Shown here one piece after another: positions 24,269 to 64,000 of a stretch of 64,000 nt of DNA. Source of the stretch: Alistipes sp. (GTDB taxonomy: Bacteria > Bacteroidota > Bacteroidia > Bacteroidales > Rikenellaceae); the NCBI GenBank assembly GCA_017631275.1, contig JAGBTQ010000003.1:186001-250000 (forward strand). Reading direction: 5' to 3'. Each line of letters begins with the position of its first letter. Position 1 is the stretch's first letter. The notes under the pieces are model-generated. The model did no database searches. It saw only the letters and a list, made by a program, of their open reading frames with translations, and was not told the DNA's origin. The position numbers and the translations under genes were made by a program.

Positions 24269-25174
24269 ATGTCAGAGAGTGCCAAAAAGTGGGAGAAAAT
24301 TAGTGGCGAGTATCGTCGATACATCAAGTTCGAGAGGCGACTATCGGACAATAGTGTCGATGCCTATATGCGCGATTTCGAGGAGTTTAGCCACTTTGTG
24401 ATGCGCCATTGGAATGTCATTCCCGAGAAGGTCGCCTCGGAGCATATCGAGCGATATATGGCGTGGTTGTACTCTGAGGGGCGCAGCAGCGCCTCGCAGG
24501 CTCGTCGCCTAAGTGGCGTTAAGAGCTTCTACAACTTTCTACTTCTTAAGGATCGCGTTGAGCAGCTACCCACCGAGGGCGTTGTGGCGCCGAAGGCGGG
24601 GCGCATACTTCCCGACACGCTCACTATCGACGAGATTGATGCTATGCTCGCTACCTTCGATATTCGTGAGTCGAAGGGGTGTCGCAATAGTGCCATTGTC
24701 GAGGTGTTGTACTCGTGCGGACTACGCGTATCGGAGCTCACGTCGCTACGCCTCCAAGACCTCTTCTTCGGCGAGGGCTATATACGTGTTATTGGCAAGG
24801 GCGACAAGCAGCGCATAGTGCCCGTGAGCTCGGCGGCACGCGACAAGATTCAGCTATATATGGAGTTTCGCACGCCTAAGCGTAGCTCCGAACCCGTACT
24901 CTTTCTAAACAACCGAGGCACGCCACTGACGCGCGTAATGGTCTTTAATATCATCAAGACGGCGGCAAGCAATGCTGGTATCGCCAAGCAGATTAGCCCG
25001 CATACCTTGCGCCACTCCTATGCCACACATCTTCTGGAGGGTGGTGCTAACATCCGTCAGGTGCAGGAGCTGCTCGGACACGAGAGTATCGAGACCACCG
25101 AGATATATACACACCTCAATAGCCGTCGTCTACGTACTGTTGTCGAGGACTCATTCTCAGATGTTGAACTATAA
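24269..25174 (+). CDS. xerD: Site-specific tyrosine recombinase XerD-type
   Basis: Chromosome dimer resolution recombinase. 301 residues with an N-terminal SAM-like core-binding domain and a complete catalytic set: R153 (CGLRVSEL), K177 (GKGDKQR), H245 and R248 (HTLRH), H271 (LGHES) and the nucleophile Y280 (TEIYTH). The length and HTLRHSYATHLLEGGANIRQ block are typical of chromosomal XerC/D rather than integron or phage integrases. XerC versus XerD is not certain. Confidence 0.92.
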   Translation: MSESAKKWEKISGEYRRYIKFERRLSDNSVDAYMRDFEEFSHFVMRHWNVIPEKVASEHIERYMAWLYSEGRSSASQARRLSGVKSFYNFLLLKDRVEQLPTEGVVAPKAGRILPDTLTIDEIDAMLATFDIRESKGCRNSAIVEVLYSCGLRVSELTSLRLQDLFFGEGYIRVIGKGDKQRIVPVSSAARDKIQLYMEFRTPKRSSEPVLFLNNRGTPLTRVMVFNIIKTAASNAGIAKQISPHTLRHSYATHLLEGGANIRQVQELLGHESIETTEIYTHLNSRRLRTVVEDSFSDVEL

Positions 25175-39465: not shown

Positions 39466-40752
39466 ATGAAGAAGATATACCTAATCGTGGCTCGCGAGTT
39501 TACGGAGCGAGTGCGCAAGAAGTCGTTTATAGTAACCACGCTGCTCATGCCCCTCTTTATGATAGGCATGATGGTGGCACCCTCGCTCATGATGTTCTAT
39601 GGTAAGAGCGAGCAGAAGCAGGTGGTTGTCGTTGATAAGTCGGGCTTTGTTGCCGAGCGCATGCAATCTTCCGAGGAGGTGGTATTCTCGGTGCAGAACA
39701 ACCTCACGAAGGAGGAGGCGTGCCAGATATACAACGCCGAGAGCGGCATCTTTGGCATACTATATATCAACGAGGATGTCAAGGAGAGTGGCAACGTTCA
39801 GTTTATCATCAACTCCTCGTCGTCGCTCATGCTCGAGGAGCTTATCCAGTCGCAGCTTAAGAGTATCGTTGAGCGCGAGAAGCTTAAGGAGCGCTATAAC
39901 ATCGACAACCTCGACCAGATGTTGGCAGATGTGGCTGTGCCCATCGCTCTCAACACCTTCGAGAATAATGGCACGGGCAACGAGGAGGATATGGAGAGCA
40001 CCTCGGCAGGCATCAACTACATCTTGGGCATAATCCTCGGCATGCTGCTCTACATGGTCATCATCATCTACGGCCAGATGGTGCTAACCTCTGTTGTCGA
40101 GGAGAAGTCGAGCCGTGTTATAGACGTTATGGTAACCAGCTGCTCGCCCTTCCAGCTTATGATGGGTAAGATTTTGGGTATTGCTGCTGTGGCACTCACG
40201 CAGATAGCCATCTGGGCAGCGCTAATTATTGCCGCCTCTAAGTTCCTTATCCCCGCCCTCTTCTCGGCAGATGTGGCTATGTCGAGCGACGCTATGCTTC
40301 AGGGCATTATGGGCACTCTTGGCGACACAGGATATATCGCTACACTCTTTATCTACCTTGCCCTCTTTATCCTTGGAGGCTTCCTGCTCTACGCCTCGTT
40401 GTATGCTGCGGCGGGCTCGGCGGTCGACTCGGTGCAAGATGGTCAGCAGTTTAACACTATCATCATGATGCCTATTATTCTTGCTATGATTGTCATGATG
40501 TCGGTATTCAACGACCCTAACTCGCCCATCGCCTTTTGGGCATCGATGATACCCTTCACCTCGCCTATTGTGATGATTGCCCGCATACCTTTCGGCATTC
40601 CTACATGGGAGGTTGTAGTATCGCTGGTGGTGCTCTACCTAAGCTTTGTTGTCACCACATGGCTCTCAGCAAAGATATACCGCATAGGTATATTTATGCA
40701 CGGCAAGCGACCTTCGTGGGGGGAGCTTGCTAAGTGGCTCAAAACAAAGTAA
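39466..40752 (+). CDS. ABC-2 type permease (NatB-like)
   Basis: 428 residues: one N-terminal helix (SFIVTTLLMPLFMIGMMVAP), a periplasmic domain (residues 50-180), and five or six C-terminal helices with VVEEKSSRVIDVMVTSCSPFQLMMGKILG, the hallmark of NatB/ABC-2 membrane 3-12 permeases. Its TAA stop codon is the first part of the structured element at 40751. Confidence 0.9.
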   Translation: MKKIYLIVAREFTERVRKKSFIVTTLLMPLFMIGMMVAPSLMMFYGKSEQKQVVVVDKSGFVAERMQSSEEVVFSVQNNLTKEEACQIYNAESGIFGILYINEDVKESGNVQFIINSSSSLMLEELIQSQLKSIVEREKLKERYNIDNLDQMLADVAVPIALNTFENNGTGNEEDMESTSAGINYILGIILGMLLYMVIIIYGQMVLTSVVEEKSSRVIDVMVTSCSPFQLMMGKILGIAAVALTQIAIWAALIIAASKFLIPALFSADVAMSSDAMLQGIMGTLGDTGYIATLFIYLALFILGGFLLYASLYAAAGSAVDSVQDGQQFNTIIMMPIILAMIVMMSVFNDPNSPIAFWASMIPFTSPIVMIARIPFGIPTWEVVVSLVVLYLSFVVTTWLSAKIYRIGIFMHGKRPSWGELAKWLKTK

Positions 40753-40878
40753 TTTCTTGTGATAGGGGGTCGATTGCGGCCCCTAGAAAAAATGCCACCA
40801 ATGGGACGTACATCTAGTACTACCCATCGGTGGCATTTTTGCCGAGTGTAGCACTCGGCACCCTTCTGACAAGAAATT
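40751..40878 (+). repeat. Stop-codon-abutting structured element, copy A
   Basis: The outer arms AATTTCTTGT (40751-40760) and ACAAGAAATT (40869-40878) are a perfect 10-bp inverted repeat; the left arm includes AA of the TAA stop. Inside are AGGGG/CCCCT, a long hairpin of AAAAATGCCACC/GGTGGCATTTTT with the GTAC-loop-GTAC tip, and GCCGAGTG-TAG-CACTCGGC (40841-40859). The T-run after the middle hairpin could terminate transcription. Nearly identical to copy D at 57325. Confidence 0.85.
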
Positions 40879-40899
40879 GTTTCTCGCTGATTGAGGTGG

Positions 40900-41118
40900 G
40901 CTGGGGCATAGGGAAGATTGGAAGAATAGGGAAGATAGGGAAAGGGGTATAGAGACAACAAAGACAACAGAGACAACAGAGACAACAAAGAAACTCGGGT
41001 ATCAAACAATAATCTCTATTCTCTCTGCTCTCTCTGCTCTCTCTGCTGTCCCTATCTTCCCTATTTTCCCTACTCTCCTTATTAACCTCGTGCAAAGCGC
41101 ATCGCACCTCTCCCCTCT
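40900..41118. repeat. Nonamer-periodic array downstream of copy A
   Basis: Strict 9-bp units: ATAGGGAAG-type, then AGACAACAG-type (about 40951-40990), then CTCTCTGCT-type (about 41010-41045) and TTCCCTATT-type. G-rich units on the left are complementary to C-rich units on the right, so the block could fold back. It ends with CTCGTGCAAAGCGCATCGCACC, a diverged form of the GTGCGAAGCACACC block (quoted in parts). No gene is seen in this 412-bp gap. Confidence 0.75.
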
Positions 41119-49969: not shown

Positions 49970-50183
49970 AGGTGAAAGGTGAAAAGTGAGAGGTGAAAGG
50001 TGAAAAGTATGGTGTGCTTCGCACGGGGGGGGGATTTTATGGGGTAGATGGGACGAATGGGATAGATGGGGAGAATAGGGAAGATAGGGAATTTAAGGAA
50101 CTTAAGGAACTTAGGGAAAGACTATCACTAAACTCCTTAAATTCATTAAATTCACTAATCAGCTACTTCAATCAGCGCACTAA
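49970..50183. repeat. TTTCACC-type repeat and nonamer-periodic array beside copy C
   Basis: On the plus strand GGTGAAAGGTGAAAAG-type repeats (49973-50008) are followed by GGTGTGCTTCGCACGG (50011-50027), then thirteen consecutive 9-bp units from 50042 to 50158 (GGGTAGATG, GGACGAATG, GGATAGATG ... AGGAACTTA twice ... ATTCATTAA, ATTCACTAA) with no phase slip. The later units are roughly complementary to the middle ones. The order is the same as at 57.5 kb, in reverse orientation. No gene is seen in this 517-bp gap. Confidence 0.8.
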
Positions 50184-50224
50184 TTCTCGCGAGAAGGGTT
50201 GCAGATGCGCCCTTATCGCGAGAA
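50184..50224 (-). repeat. Mini copy C2 of the structured element
   Basis: A 15-bp imperfect stem, TTCTCGCGAGAAGGG (50184-50198) against CCCTTATCGCGAGAA (50210-50224), closing an 11-base loop. It has the same core as the outer stem of the large copies (GATAAGGG opposite CCCTTCT) with the outer part changed on both sides to CGCG. It directly abuts copy C. Confidence 0.75.
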
Positions 50225-50355
50225 ATATTTCTTGTTAGAAGGGGTTAGGCTTGGCTTATCACAAAAGAAGATCCCCTCGGGATAGTACCGAAGTACAGCC
50301 CGAGGGGTCTTTCTTTGTGTGATGGGCCGAGAATGACCCCTTATCACATGAAATT
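50225..50355 (-). repeat. Stop-codon-abutting structured element, copy C
   Basis: Read on the minus strand it begins inside the TAA of the second POT gene with TTTCATGTGATAAGGGG and closes with CCCCTTCTAACAAGAAAT. The inner hairpin has CCCCTCGGG arms (50273-50281, 50299-50307) and the conserved tip GTAC-loop-GTACTA, extended by TCACA/TGTGA pairs. A T-rich run follows the hairpin on both strands. Confidence 0.85.
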
Positions 50356-51889
50356 ATGCGTTGGTTACGCGCTCCAACCACTTAACCATACCCAACATGA
50401 TACCCATAGATACAAGGCACACGCTTAGGAATACTGTCCAGCAAATCCAGATTGGTGCTGCGTTGTAGATGAGTGGACCAATCCAGAGAAGGAGGTTACC
50501 CACTGCTGTAGCACCCAACCACAAGCCCTGGCACAAGCCGAGCATATGCTTAGGAGCAACCTTCGATACGAACGATAGACCAAGTGGTGAGATGAACAAC
50601 TCGGCTACTGTGAGGAAGAAGTAGAGTACGAAGAGTACCCATGGACCAGAGAGCTCAACGCCCTCGGCACGTGCCTCAGTAGCAGATGGATAGCCCATGA
50701 AGTAAGAGTAAACAGCAAGGAATACATAAGCAGCACCTGCGATAGCCATACCGATAGCAATCTTACGAGGTGTTGAGATGTACTTACCGCGACGACCCAA
50801 AGCGCCAAATACCCACATGATAACTGGGGTAAGAAGGATAACGTACAATGGGTTGAGTGCCTGCCATACCTCAGGAGCCACGCTATCAGACTTCACGAAG
50901 TCGCGAGCGAACATCGAGAGTGATGTACCATTCTGGTGGAATGCAAACCAGAAGAAGATAGCGATAGCCAACACTGCGAAGAGAGCATACATACGCTGCT
51001 TGATCTCCTTAGCTGCTGCTAGACGCTCCTCTGGAGTGTAGTCAACAGATACTGCTGCAGCCTTCTTTGAAGGTGTTGGGAAGCGCTTACGTGTTGATAC
51101 AAAGATTGTTAGTGAGATGAGCATAGCAGCCACTGATGCGATGAACGAGTAGTGGATACCCTCGTTGAAAATCTGAAGATAGTCACCGCAGAATGCTGCC
51201 ATATCCTCTACTGGCTGAAGGCTTGCCTCGCCAGCGAGCTTAGTAAGCTGCTCTGAAGCCTCGCCTGTTGCCTGGAACTTGTGGCAGAGTGCTGGGAGCT
51301 GAGCGTTGTAGATCATGTCGTGTGACTTGAGCCACCACTCACGAAGCAATGGAGCAACGAAAGGAGCGATAACACCACCCACGTTGATGAAGACGTAGAA
51401 GATCTGGAAACCAGAGTCGCGCTTGTCCTTAGCTGCCTTCAAAGCCTCCTCGCCATTTTTTGCTGCCTCAGCCTCGAAGTTGTCGTACATCTGACCTACG
51501 ATAGCCTGCAAGTTACCCTTAAACAGACCGTTACCAAATGCAATAACGAACAAAGCCAAGCAGGTCAATGGAAGCAACCAGCTGATGTTAGTTGATGTGG
51601 CAAGGATTGGAATAGAGAGCAACACATAACCTGTTGCCATAATCATCAAACCTGCCATGATGGTACCCTTGTAGTTCTGGGTCTTATCGGCGATGTAACC
51701 ACCAACAAGAGCCAAAATGTAGATACCAGCATAGAAGAACGAGTAGATTAGCGAGCTTGTCTCCTCGCTGAGTCCGAACTTCGAGCAGAGGAACAAAACA
51801 AGAACGGCGTTCATGATGTAGTAACCGAAACGCTCGCCCATGTTGCTAAGAGCCGCTGCTAACAGACCTTTTGGGTGTCCTTTGAACAT
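50354..51889 (-). CDS. POT-family peptide transporter, paralogue
   Basis: 511 residues with GERFGYYIMNAVLVLFL and GNGLFKGNLQAIVGQMYD. Compared with its neighbour it has a longer loop near residues 185-240 (CHKFQATGEASEQLTKLAGE) but no Ala/Glu insert. Same strand as the first POT gene but separated by the repeat block, so probably transcribed separately. Peptide uptake is the expected role. Its TAA stop overlaps element copy C. Confidence 0.92.
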   Translation of the reverse strand: MFKGHPKGLLAAALSNMGERFGYYIMNAVLVLFLCSKFGLSEETSSLIYSFFYAGIYILALVGGYIADKTQNYKGTIMAGLMIMATGYVLLSIPILATSTNISWLLPLTCLALFVIAFGNGLFKGNLQAIVGQMYDNFEAEAAKNGEEALKAAKDKRDSGFQIFYVFINVGGVIAPFVAPLLREWWLKSHDMIYNAQLPALCHKFQATGEASEQLTKLAGEASLQPVEDMAAFCGDYLQIFNEGIHYSFIASVAAMLISLTIFVSTRKRFPTPSKKAAAVSVDYTPEERLAAAKEIKQRMYALFAVLAIAIFFWFAFHQNGTSLSMFARDFVKSDSVAPEVWQALNPLYVILLTPVIMWVFGALGRRGKYISTPRKIAIGMAIAGAAYVFLAVYSYFMGYPSATEARAEGVELSGPWVLFVLYFFLTVAELFISPLGLSFVSKVAPKHMLGLCQGLWLGATAVGNLLLWIGPLIYNAAPIWICWTVFLSVCLVSMGIMLGMVKWLERVTNA

Positions 51890-56120: not shown

Positions 56121-57326
56121 ATGAAGATTAAGTTTTTATTGATTTTGGCGCTCACAGCAACATTAGCTTTTGCGATGGTTGCATGTGGCACAACACAGAA
56201 GAAGAACCAGGACCAGCAGACCGACGAGATGGAGGAGCTCTGGGACGAGGAGTTTGATGGCGAGGATTTCGGTATCGAGGGCGAGGATGTTCTCGACGAG
56301 GAGTCTAGCGAAGTTAAGGGCGAGGTGGCTCTCAATGGCGACCCAAACAAGGCTGACCACATTGTTATCTCAAAGGAGTCTATGACTCTTAACCTCTACG
56401 ATAGCGATGGTGGTCTTATCTTCAGCTTCCCTGTAGCTGTTGGTAAGAACTATGGTAACAAGGAGAAGATTGGCGATATGAAGACTCCAGAGGGTGAGTT
56501 CTCAATCGTTCAGATTCAGGATGCTTCAGCTTGGACACACGACTTCAAAGATGGTAAGGGTGTTATTGCTGGTTGCTACGGTAACTGGTTTATCCGTCTT
56601 AAGACCCCTCCACACACAGGTATCGGTATCCACGGTACTCACGCACCAGAGTCAATTGGTACACGTGCTACCGAGGGTTGTATTCGTCTTAACAATGCTG
56701 ACCTCGACAAGCTTAAGCCACTCGTACGTGTAGGCATGAAGGTTACTATCGAGAGCTCTGTTAAGGATATGGAGGCTGATGGCCGCACTGAGGAGAATGG
56801 CTTGAACAAGACAACTGTTGCCGATGAGGACGATGCTGAGGGCGACATCTTCAAGGATCTCGAGAAGAACAAAGATGAGGTTGCAAGCGTTGATGCTGAT
56901 AAGATTGCTACATCTGACGATAACGCTGTTGATCACGTTATTGCTCAGGGCGAGAGCTTCGCAAGTTTGGCTAAGCAGTACAACACAACAGCTGATCGCA
57001 TCCAGAAGCTTAACCCAGATGTTAACCCTAACAAAATTCAGATTGGTCAGAAGATCCGCGTTAAGGGTAACAAGCCTCTTGTAAAGGAGGAGAAGAAGGC
57101 TGAGGCTAAGCCAGAGGCTAAGGCAGAGGAGAAGAAGGCAGAGGTTAAGGCTGAGGCTACACCAGCATCTTCAGGCGAGGCTGTTTACCACACTGTAGAG
57201 GCAGGCGAGACTATGGGTCACATCGCCTTCAAGTATGAGGGTGCAACTCAGAAGTCTATTGAGGCGCTCAATCCAGACATTGATCCTACTAAGTTGCAGA
57301 TTGGTCAGAAGATTCGCGTTAAGTAA
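56121..57326 (+). CDS. L,D-transpeptidase lipoprotein with two LysM domains
   Basis: 401 residues. Signal with lipobox MVAC (Cys22), an acidic linker, YkuD catalytic domain at about 78-212 with H171 and C187 in HGTHAPES...ATEGCIRL, then LysM 1 (271-315) and LysM 2 (355-401), joined by a Lys/Glu/Ala-rich linker. Makes 3-3 cross-links or attaches proteins to peptidoglycan; the LysM repeats bind glycan. Codons are noticeably more uniform (many GTT, CTT, GCT) than in neighbours, suggesting high expression. The stop codon overlaps element copy D. Confidence 0.9.
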   Translation: MKIKFLLILALTATLAFAMVACGTTQKKNQDQQTDEMEELWDEEFDGEDFGIEGEDVLDEESSEVKGEVALNGDPNKADHIVISKESMTLNLYDSDGGLIFSFPVAVGKNYGNKEKIGDMKTPEGEFSIVQIQDASAWTHDFKDGKGVIAGCYGNWFIRLKTPPHTGIGIHGTHAPESIGTRATEGCIRLNNADLDKLKPLVRVGMKVTIESSVKDMEADGRTEENGLNKTTVADEDDAEGDIFKDLEKNKDEVASVDADKIATSDDNAVDHVIAQGESFASLAKQYNTTADRIQKLNPDVNPNKIQIGQKIRVKGNKPLVKEEKKAEAKPEAKAEEKKAEVKAEATPASSGEAVYHTVEAGETMGHIAFKYEGATQKSIEALNPDIDPTKLQIGQKIRVK

Positions 57327-57452
57327 TTTCTTGTGATAAGGGGTCGATTGCGTCCCCTAGAAAAAATGCCACCAATGGGACGTACGTCTAGTACTACCCA
57401 TCGGTGGCATTTTTGCCGAGTGTAGCACTCGGCACCCTTCTGACAAGAAATT
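57325..57452 (+). repeat. Stop-codon-abutting structured element, copy D
   Basis: Same length and arms as copy A, with only three or four base differences. Two of them, in the first hairpin, turn the loop-closing bases from G/G to T. The TAA stop (57324-57326) again provides the first AA. Tip: GTAC-GTCT-A-GTAC. Confidence 0.85.
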
Positions 57453-57700
57453 AGTGCGCTAATTTAGGTGGTAGATTAAGGAGTTTAATGAATTTAAGGA
57501 GTTTAGTGATAGTATTTCCCTAAATCCCTTTTCTTCCCTATCCTCCCTATTTATCCTATCTATCCCATTCGTCCCATCTATCCCAAAAAATAAACCCCGT
57601 GCGAAGCACACCATACCTTTCCCCTTTCCCCTTTCCCCTTTCACCTCTCACCTTCCCCCCCCCTCTAATCCCTCGAAAAGTGCTGTTCGTCAACAAATTT
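57453..57700. repeat. Nonamer-periodic array and TTTCCCC/CACC repeats after copy D
   Basis: AGTGCGCTAATTTAGG, then twelve 9-bp units in phase from about 57477 to 57585 (TTAAGGAGT, TTAATGAAT, TTAAGGAGT ... TATCTATCC, CATTCGTCC, CATCTATCC), then CCCCGTGCGAAGCACACC (57595-57612) and CCCTTT/CACC repeats to about 57665. This is the same order as beside copy C, mirrored. No gene is seen between 57327 and 57838. Confidence 0.8.
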
Positions 57701-63150: not shown

Positions 63151-63281
63151 AATTTGTTGTCAGAAGCCGTGAGATGTGGTACATTAAAAAAGTGACTACC
63201 CGAGGATAGTACCTAACGTACAGCCTCGGGTAGTCAGCTTTTTAATGATGTGCCGCAGATTGCGGCTTATCACAGCAAATT
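63151..63281 (-). repeat. Stop-codon-abutting structured element, copy G
   Basis: On the minus strand it starts within the TAA of tryptophanase with TTTGCTGTGATAAGCCG and ends CGGCTTCTGACAACAAATT. The inner stem is GACTACCCGAGG / CCTCGGGTAGTC (63194-63205, 63224-63235), and the tip again is GTAC-loop-GTACTA. Compared with copies A, C and D, GGGG/CCCC in the outer stem is replaced by GCCG/CGGC on both sides. Confidence 0.85.
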
Positions 63282-64000
63282 ACAAGCGCTCGAGCTTCAC
63301 AGTAAAGTGACGCATAAGCTCAGTCTCCCATACGATCTTAACACCACGTGTGATCTCGTTACGACGGTCGTAAACGTTCTTCAACGCTGCTGCGATAACG
63401 TCCATGTGGTTGTTAGTGTAAGAGCGGCGAGCGATGCACAAACGAAGGAGGTCAAGACCACCGAAGCGGTTCTCGCGAGTTACAGGATCACGGTCAGCAA
63501 GGATGTAACCGATCTCGCAACCACGAACACCTGCCTCCAAGTAGAGCTCGATAGCAAGAGTCTGTGCTGGGAACTCCTCCTTAGGAATGTTAGAGAGAAC
63601 CTTGTCAGCATCTACGAACAAAGCGTGACCACCAACAGGACGCTGGTAAGGAATGCCATACTCGTCGAGCTTAGCAGCGAGGTACTGAACCTGCTTGATA
63701 CGTGTCTCGATAGTCTCAAGCTCAGTGTTCTCGTCAAGACCTACAGCCAAAGCAGCCATATCACGGCCGTTCATACCACCGTATGTCAAGAAGCCCTCGA
63801 ATGGGATGCAGAAACGCTTAGCACCCTCGTACCAGTCCTCGTGACGTGTAGCGATGAAACCACCCATGTTTACAAGACCGTCCTTCTTTGATGACATTGT
63901 CATACCGTCAGCGTAAGAGAACATCTCCTTGCAGATCTCCTTGATAGTCTTATCTGCGTAGCCCTCCTCGCGAGTCTTGATGAAGTAAGCGTTCTCAACG
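63280..64000 (-). CDS. tnaA: Tryptophanase (tryptophan indole-lyase), 5 prime part beyond window
   Basis: PLP beta-eliminating lyase that splits tryptophan to indole, pyruvate and ammonia. The visible 240 C-terminal residues run in frame from the window edge (VENAYFIKTREEGYADKTI), through SYADGMTMSSKKDGLVNMGG with the PLP Lys in MSSKKDG, to RPVGGHALFVDADK and RNEITRGVKI. Tyrosine phenol-lyase is the close alternative; the G-G-H-A-L-F-V-D-A and REEGY features favour the tryptophanase group, but the deciding residues are only partly in view. The end is at 63280, inside element copy G. Confidence 0.88.
   Translation of the reverse strand, partial: VENAYFIKTREEGYADKTIKEICKEMFSYADGMTMSSKKDGLVNMGGFIATRHEDWYEGAKRFCIPFEGFLTYGGMNGRDMAALAVGLDENTELETIETRIKQVQYLAAKLDEYGIPYQRPVGGHALFVDADKVLSNIPKEEFPAQTLAIELYLEAGVRGCEIGYILADRDPVTRENRFGGLDLLRLCIARRSYTNNHMDVIAAALKNVYDRRNEITRGVKIVWETELMRHFTVKLERL

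Follow-up and report, generated by a model that had tools for sequence, protein, structure and literature searches.

A hairpin element that mostly begins directly behind the stop codon is present at the ends of many genes of an Alistipes sp. genome (G000). At least 137 copies were detected in this assembly (1.92 Mb, 87.5% complete), and similar structures were found in other Alistipes species and in members of distant phyla. There is about an even chance that these copies are REP-like, non-autonomous mobile palindromes handled as single-stranded DNA.

Hairpin elements at four gene ends

The initial annotation of the window, the whole 64-kb stretch of DNA that was analysed, had claimed that the TAA stop codons of four unrelated genes each precede a structured element. 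All four copies were confirmed, and a far larger family was found behind them. The elements, the stop codons forming their feet, and one remnant are arranged in the window as follows (E values from the covariance model described below).

40750..40752, plus strand: TAA stop codon (foot) of the 428-aa gene 39466-40752
40753..40877, plus strand: hairpin element, class B, with outer stem, two side hairpins and a central hairpin with GTAC tip; E 2.5e-14
50183..50226, minus strand: short remnant of a second, distal element, outer arms retained and middle gone; resembles 43-44 nt distal copies elsewhere in the genome
50227..50353, minus strand: hairpin element, class D2, one long interrupted hairpin; E 7.7e-23
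50354..50356, minus strand: TAA stop codon (foot) of the peptide transporter gene 50354-51889
57324..57326, plus strand: TAA stop codon (foot) of the LysM/L,D-transpeptidase gene 56121-57326
57327..57451, plus strand: hairpin element, class B; E 9.2e-15
63152..63279, minus strand: hairpin element, class C by sequence, one long interrupted hairpin, predicted folds disagreeing in the outer part; E 7.7e-23
63280..63282, minus strand: TAA stop codon (foot) of the tryptophanase gene

Among the host genes, which are unrelated to each other, only the 428-aa gene had no NCBIfam match. With up to three mismatches allowed, the left-arm pattern matched seven times in the window, at four left and three right arms, compared to 0.87 expected matches, and none of 100 shuffled sequences reached seven. 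Folding of all four copies, as DNA and as RNA, gave z values of -8 to -11 with no equally stable structure among 200 shuffles. The two plus-strand copies are near-identical and both are of the branched class.

A shared tail (about RGTGCGCTGATTGAGGTGG) is located behind the last element of many arrays, in the window at 40878-41080, 57452-57600, and 50130-50182, and at similar places in L001-L086. It is followed by low-complexity purine-rich DNA and then by a pyrimidine-rich near-complement, forming a second, low-complexity inverted repeat.

Structure and covariation of the elements

Element length is mostly 124-129 nt in G000. Lengths of 153 and 221-232 nt were encountered elsewhere, giving a range of about 125-230 nt for the family. 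Alignment of 61 single-hairpin copies yielded 27 consensus pairs, 18 of which show changes on both sides that retain pairing. In this alignment 90.5% of the cells are paired, compared to 73.6% after shuffling and 39-50% with slid structures, and 272 cells are altered on both sides versus 90 after shuffling. The proposal of co-varying stems was borne out by these values; the changes keep pairing, and the copies are not identical duplicates. When stems were analysed class by class, 4186 of 4338 cells were Watson-Crick. The loops are largely conserved while the stems vary, namely GAT opposite CTR, CATC opposite ATCT, and the tip GTAC-loop-GTAC. This tip had been thought to be constant; it is largely kept, but GGCTGTAC, GGACGTAC, AGCAGTAC and ATATAC forms occur across the family.

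Selection on RNA would be expected to favour G-U pairs. Counted as distinct events of pair and type, G-T mismatches (33) and A-C mismatches (32) gave no G-U signature. Counted as cells, G-T is in excess (65 versus 37 A-C), which counts against a REP-like nature, 40 of the 65 coming from class B with its ambiguous fold.

Hybrid elements were observed at L022:1262-1389 and L086:918-1046, in which the outer arms of one class are combined with the inner hairpin of another. Both arms are exchanged together in hybrids, as by gene conversion of the inner part.

The initial annotation knew of no family with this layout, and none was found in Rfam. Searches at the gathering score gave no match in the window, a search of 12 loci gave a cobalamin riboswitch elsewhere in L252 as sole match, and further searches at E-value thresholds gave weak matches alone and no family. 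Phage, plasmid, and viral collections yielded no match to one copy or to the strict tip used as queries. Among the open-licence papers found by literature searches, no title or abstract describes the hairpin family.

Copy number and distribution in Alistipes

A covariance model followed by genome searches had been suggested as a check. Built from the 61 aligned copies, it gave 149 matches in G000, from which 12 opposite-strand doubles were subtracted by eye; 150 of 654 candidates were scored, and the resulting 137 copies are therefore a lower bound. Matches were obtained in 27 of 41 Alistipes genomes, 14 of 25 including G000 and 13 of 16 additional ones, which were selected among genomes in which the peptide transporter gene has an ortholog. 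None of 16 genomes from other families of the same order had a match. Public records containing the tip point by their titles to the genus Alistipes, mostly from ruminant hindgut. The outer arms, inspected by eye, vary between Alistipes species yet remain paired. Genes carrying an element in G000 include those for phosphoglycerate kinase, aldolase, ribosome recycling factor, SecA, EF-P, EF-Ts, and several tRNA synthetases.

A wide presence of the tip in Bacteroidota was considered and rejected. Of 395 genomes sampled, only G000 had more than one match and eight others had one each, compared to seven single matches for a reversed control pattern.

Position relative to stop codons

In fetched stretches of G000, 86 first copies were compared with the ends of the preceding genes, leaving aside 34 later array copies and four opposite-strand matches. 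Sixty begin directly after the stop codon and 18 lie 1-12 nt beyond it. In five, the coding frame extends into the element and ends 10 nt within it. Of the remaining three, one lies at a great distance from a stop, one has no stop nearby, and one, truncated by a contig start, is unscorable. The stop-codon position thus holds for 60 of 85 scorable first copies at distance 0, but it is not exact in every copy; 83 of the 85 are located within -10 to +12 nt and in sense orientation to the gene. This division combines a table with the reading of 14 odd rows by eye, and degenerate copies are under-represented in it, since the loci were chosen by the left-arm pattern.

As a null model, 369 kb of the element-poor relative G021 were used. 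There, 19.8% of the TAA/TAG sites on the sense strand of 3' territory are the stop codon itself, and the antisense strand has as many such sites as the sense strand has besides the stop. Under random insertion at TAA/TAG in 3' territory, 60 of 85 copies at the stop codon correspond to a p value of 6e-24. Insertion targeted to TAA, which had been proposed, is too simple, as TAG serves as stop codon in some Alistipes congeners and in a group of genomes outside the genus (see below), and insertions at other TAA/TAG sites close to gene ends are rare.

Four contiguous regions totalling 444 kb contain 353 called genes, of which 32 carry an element, 24 of these at distance 0. Genes with an element end predominantly with TAA, 60 of 62 frames versus 60 of 130 without element, and 30 of 32 called genes versus 194 of 321. 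Regarding the question of whether the element brings the TAA, control genes kept a TAA stop between G000 and G021 in 10 of 18 cases, i.e. stops also drift. In about 20 congeners, a few of them read twice, 65 copies were placed: 26 at distance 0, 22 at -9 to +6, two at 23, and 15 without an upstream frame of 80 codons, some of which are later array copies.

Short footprints such as TTTCTTGAA are found between stop codon and first element in L002, L011, L033, L039, and L052. They look like remnants of deleted earlier copies.

Strand bias

On contigs with at least three array loci, 87 of 98 such loci, counted by eye, are on the majority strand of their contig, compared to a mean of 63.5 and a maximum of 76 in 20000 random draws. 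On contig C11, among gene ends followed by 60 nt or more of free space, an element is present at 12 of 28 on the plus strand versus one of 30 on the minus strand (p 0.0003). The p values for other regions were 0.03 (contig C21), 0.14 (a stretch of C6), and 1 (the window). Among the matches listed for relatives, majority-strand counts were 52 of 54 in G066, 17 of 18 in G071, and 18 of 22 in G074, the last being not significant. GC skew is a general guide to replication strand. After correction for transcription, the element strand shows a positive GC3 skew in C11 and C21 and one close to zero in C6. Skew and strand pattern fit an origin of the elements on the lagging-strand template; the skew near zero in C6 and the lack of a significant bias in the C6 stretch, the window, and G074 count against REP-like behaviour.

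Turnover at gene ends and polarity of arrays

Comparison of orthologous loci in relatives, another check suggested at the outset, revealed occupied, remnant-bearing, and empty ends. Behind the peptide transporter gene, inspected by eye, elements of different classes are present in G000, G053, G074, and G071, a divergent one in G019, an apparent remnant in G066, and plain terminators in G021 and G050. Sixteen of 75 carrier genes were found in the 369 kb of G021, where one has an element of a different inner class, two have remnants, and 13 have none (by eye). In 400 kb of the nearer relative G066, 14 of the 75 were found and 13 ends were readable, 11 occupied, one empty, and one with a remnant that retains the inner hairpin. 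Seven of the 11 occupied ends clearly have another class (by eye). Since the G066 ends are mostly occupied, often by another class, the site tends to stay while the element gets replaced. At L011, L013, L016, and L031, for which the downstream sequence was matched in G021, the native 3' end is missing from G000 and element plus tail are found instead.

Full-length tandem copies are spaced about 126-132 nt, with no room for a gene between them. Complete pairing of the outer stem was seen in 71 of 86 first copies versus seven of 34 later ones (p 5e-10), shortened copies make up six of the 34 and one of the 86, and classes E and G were found, in this set, solely among later copies. As stop-proximal copies are intact and later ones decayed, new copies appear to arrive at the stop codon, pushing older ones away.

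Copies outside Alistipes

The strict tip also matched at least five other genomes, a Chitinophagaceae MAG (G097), a Spirochaetaceae MAG, and three titled Desulfovibrionales, Deltaproteobacteria, and Proteobacteria, which are grouped here as the Desulfovibrionales group since their copies are alike. All five hold further tip matches or copies. That the hosts outside Alistipes are MAGs counts against a REP-like interpretation.

Among the matches listed for the Desulfovibrionales group, the left end of 18 of 23 distinct loci coincides exactly with a TAG stop that closes a frame of 100 codons or more; three loci are without such a frame and two are arranged otherwise. The foot is NTAG, and several copies have CTAG at both ends. 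No autonomous copy was apparent, nothing longer than 167 nt being among the matches listed. Of six tip matches in the Spirochaetaceae genome, two belong to two-armed copies beginning at a stop codon (TAG and TAA), a third copy stands behind TAA with its right arm truncated where the contig ends, and the other three, located at the start of a contig, are unscorable. At that contig start (L255:1-250), three tandem tip structures have a spacing of 89 nt and common arms.

The Chitinophagaceae element is 221-232 nt long and starts with TAG in four of five copies. Two of the five end a plausible gene, which likewise weakens the case for REP-like elements, and short direct repeats were seen at two copies. 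The initial annotation had regarded copies away from stop codons in other genomes as evidence against its view; with the exception of these Chitinophagaceae copies, the copies found elsewhere are mostly at stops. The patchy distribution across distant phyla is as for mobile DNA.

Search for an enzyme

At an E value of 0.001, the Y1/RAYT family (PF01797) was detected in one of 77 Alistipes genomes, which is not G000; this is a weak test, since the threshold misses the G097 gene described here (E 0.0016). At E values up to 1, none was found in G000, G066, and G093-G096, another result unfavourable to REP-like elements, while G097 has an ordinary IS200-type gene and the RAYT-like gene. The latter (L315:1515-2105, minus strand, the same gene as L400:1198-1788) matched NCBIfam NF047646, 'REP-associated tyrosine transposase', with E 3.4e-16 and 59 bits at a cut-off of 80, and its product contains NHVH and YIHANP motifs. 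Its 3' end runs into an inverted copy of the element; its other flank is beyond the contig end. One RAYT neighbour among five Chitinophagaceae copies may be coincidence. A single-sequence search found no RAYT-like frame in 834 kb of large stretches of G000.

Reverse transcriptase (RVT_1) was found in 26 of 77 Alistipes genomes, including the carriers G003, G006, G024, and G044, and was not detected in G000, G066, G011, G020, G021, G053, G071, G074, and G050, all of them carriers with incomplete genomes. Integron integrase (TIGR02249) exceeded the cut-off in none of 15 genomes, 14 of which gave weaker general tyrosine recombinase matches. No transposase appeared among the Pfam families listed (25 of 33, 40 and 36) for 75 carrier proteins.

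The window itself contains a tyrosine recombinase gene (24269-25174, plus strand) with a weaker match to the integron integrase model. It is probably XerC or XerD.

Origin of the elements

If the copies are REP-like mobile palindromes, the element would be processed as folded single-stranded DNA on the lagging-strand template, as with IS200/IS605 elements, and joined directly 3' of a foot trinucleotide, TAA in the species of G000 and TAG in the Desulfovibrionales group and in Chitinophagaceae. With the foot serving as the stop codon of the gene, the protein would be unharmed, the inner hairpin could replace the terminator, and the insertion would persist. The gene beside one Chitinophagaceae copy hints that the enzyme might be a RAYT-like HUH Y1 transposase. 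We know of no RAYT preferring stop codons. Such a process would account for the hairpin structure, the arrays, the preferred orientation and strand, and the use of TAA in some lineages and TAG in others, but not for the sparing of most other TAA/TAG sites nearby. One may guess that the target is exposed by a process at the end of translation or transcription, for example in ribosome-free R-loops starting from the stop codon. In Alistipes, the element may take over the role of the native terminator. Copies of the Desulfovibrionales group, judged by eye, are without a long T tract behind the inner stem, so that a terminator role would be secondary. A more far-reaching proposal, to which we give rather less than even weight, is a mobile class over three phyla whose copies insert at the stop codon with one orientation and one replication strand, put their own foot and terminator in place of the native 3' end, and build up arrays from the stop, with a novel enzyme and targeting principle.

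A conserved RNA element of the 3' UTR, i.e. a terminator, an mRNA stabiliser, or a brake on terminating ribosomes that needs the stop position for its function, is unlikely. It would agree with the sense orientation of 83 of the 85 scorable first copies, the many core genes among the carriers, the T tracts seen by eye behind the inner stem in most classes, the terminator-like copy at 57327 in the one region scanned, and two decayed G066 copies retaining the inner hairpin (by eye). Yet 13 of 16 orthologous ends in G021 are empty, G-U events are no commoner than A-C, the elements are biased to one strand despite equal gene numbers, and a long T tract is missing behind the inner stem in the Desulfovibrionales group (by eye). 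Of the 3'-end function considered in the initial annotation, a purely RNA role is thus disfavoured by strand bias, stop-proximal array growth, patchy occurrence in distant phyla, and the absence of G-U tolerance, but the inner hairpin may well terminate transcription in Alistipes. Overall, that earlier interpretation is partly supported.

The copies could also be MITEs of a classical DDE transposase with TA or CTAG as target, where target and first element base spell TAA or TAG. TA at the left end of most copies, CTAG flanking both ends of several copies in the Desulfovibrionales group, and the direct repeats at two Chitinophagaceae copies point in this direction. We consider it quite improbable, because the terminal arms vary with compensating changes, which a protein binding double-stranded TIRs should not allow, a constant target duplication is not seen, other TA sites are seldom used, and the stop is 1-6 nt off in some species; orientation and strand bias likewise speak against it.

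Recombination of attC-like sites as folded single strands by a tyrosine recombinase would be compatible with a retained structure of variable sequence, two paired boxes with an unpaired spacer between, location behind stop codons, and strand preference. It is very unlikely given that no integron integrase exceeded the cut-off in the 15 genomes, attC core boxes were not seen by eye, tandem copies have no genes between them, and five carrier genes are in the same order on G000 C5 and G021 C9. This conserved order rules out gene cassettes for that one region. Reverse transcription of an RNA back into DNA at stop codons would explain sense orientation and precision, and RVT_1 is present in four carriers (G003, G006, G024, G044), but as it was not found in nine incomplete carrier genomes including G000, this origin is extremely unlikely.

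Comparison with known systems

REP/RAYT systems come closest. In both cases high-copy palindromes are dispersed outside genes; part of the REPs are close behind stop codons, single-stranded DNA enzymology is involved in REPs and would be here, and a RAYT-like gene adjoins one copy here. Quentin et al. 2018 (PMC6006769) described 'atypical secondary structures' that have no GTAG at the flanks of RAYT subclass 2.6 in Bacteroidetes. Most of our copies lack the canonical GT[AG]G foot, which weakens the REP-like interpretation; they have TAA (most in G000) or NTAG (Desulfovibrionales group) and GTAG in few, and in contrast to REPs the foot TAA/TAG doubles as stop codon. REPs are characterised as short hairpins of about 20-40 bp (PMC3733652), whereas the elements here comprise 125-230 nt with several conserved internal loops. 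For E. coli, 446 of 4,072 predicted REPs are given as lying within 15 nt of a stop (PMC12306157), whereas in this study the range from -10 to +12 nt takes in 83 of the 85 first copies, 60 of them at 0. Further differences are the same-strand arrays polar from the stop and the lack of a RAYT in six of seven carriers searched at E values up to 1.

The use of stop codons of core genes as a harmless niche is shared with group II introns. Those in stop codons of housekeeping genes are an example of a mobile element using such a niche. The elements here differ in that they have no Rfam match (window) and no reverse transcriptase was found in G000.

attC sites are located behind gene ends. They are described as folded single strands with variable stems and conserved unpaired features (PMC2727003), all of which applies to the elements here, but these are accompanied by neither an integron integrase over the cut-off nor cassettes between copies, and no attC core boxes were recognised by eye. 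BrickBuilt and other Porphyromonas MITEs are structured intergenic repeats in Bacteroidales, too. BrickBuilt differs by its build, reported as 23-nt tandem repeats with IS5-type inverted repeats, and the copy described is located 182 nt behind a gene, past its terminator (PMC4596501).

A DNA element has no obvious means of reading the frame of a gene, yet copies sit at stops in Alistipes, in the Desulfovibrionales group, and in Spirochaetaceae. One possibility is a single-strand transposition system able to recognise the end of translation; the other is that gene ends are under far stricter selection than previously supposed. The element represents a natural gene-end module on many core genes of gut bacteria.
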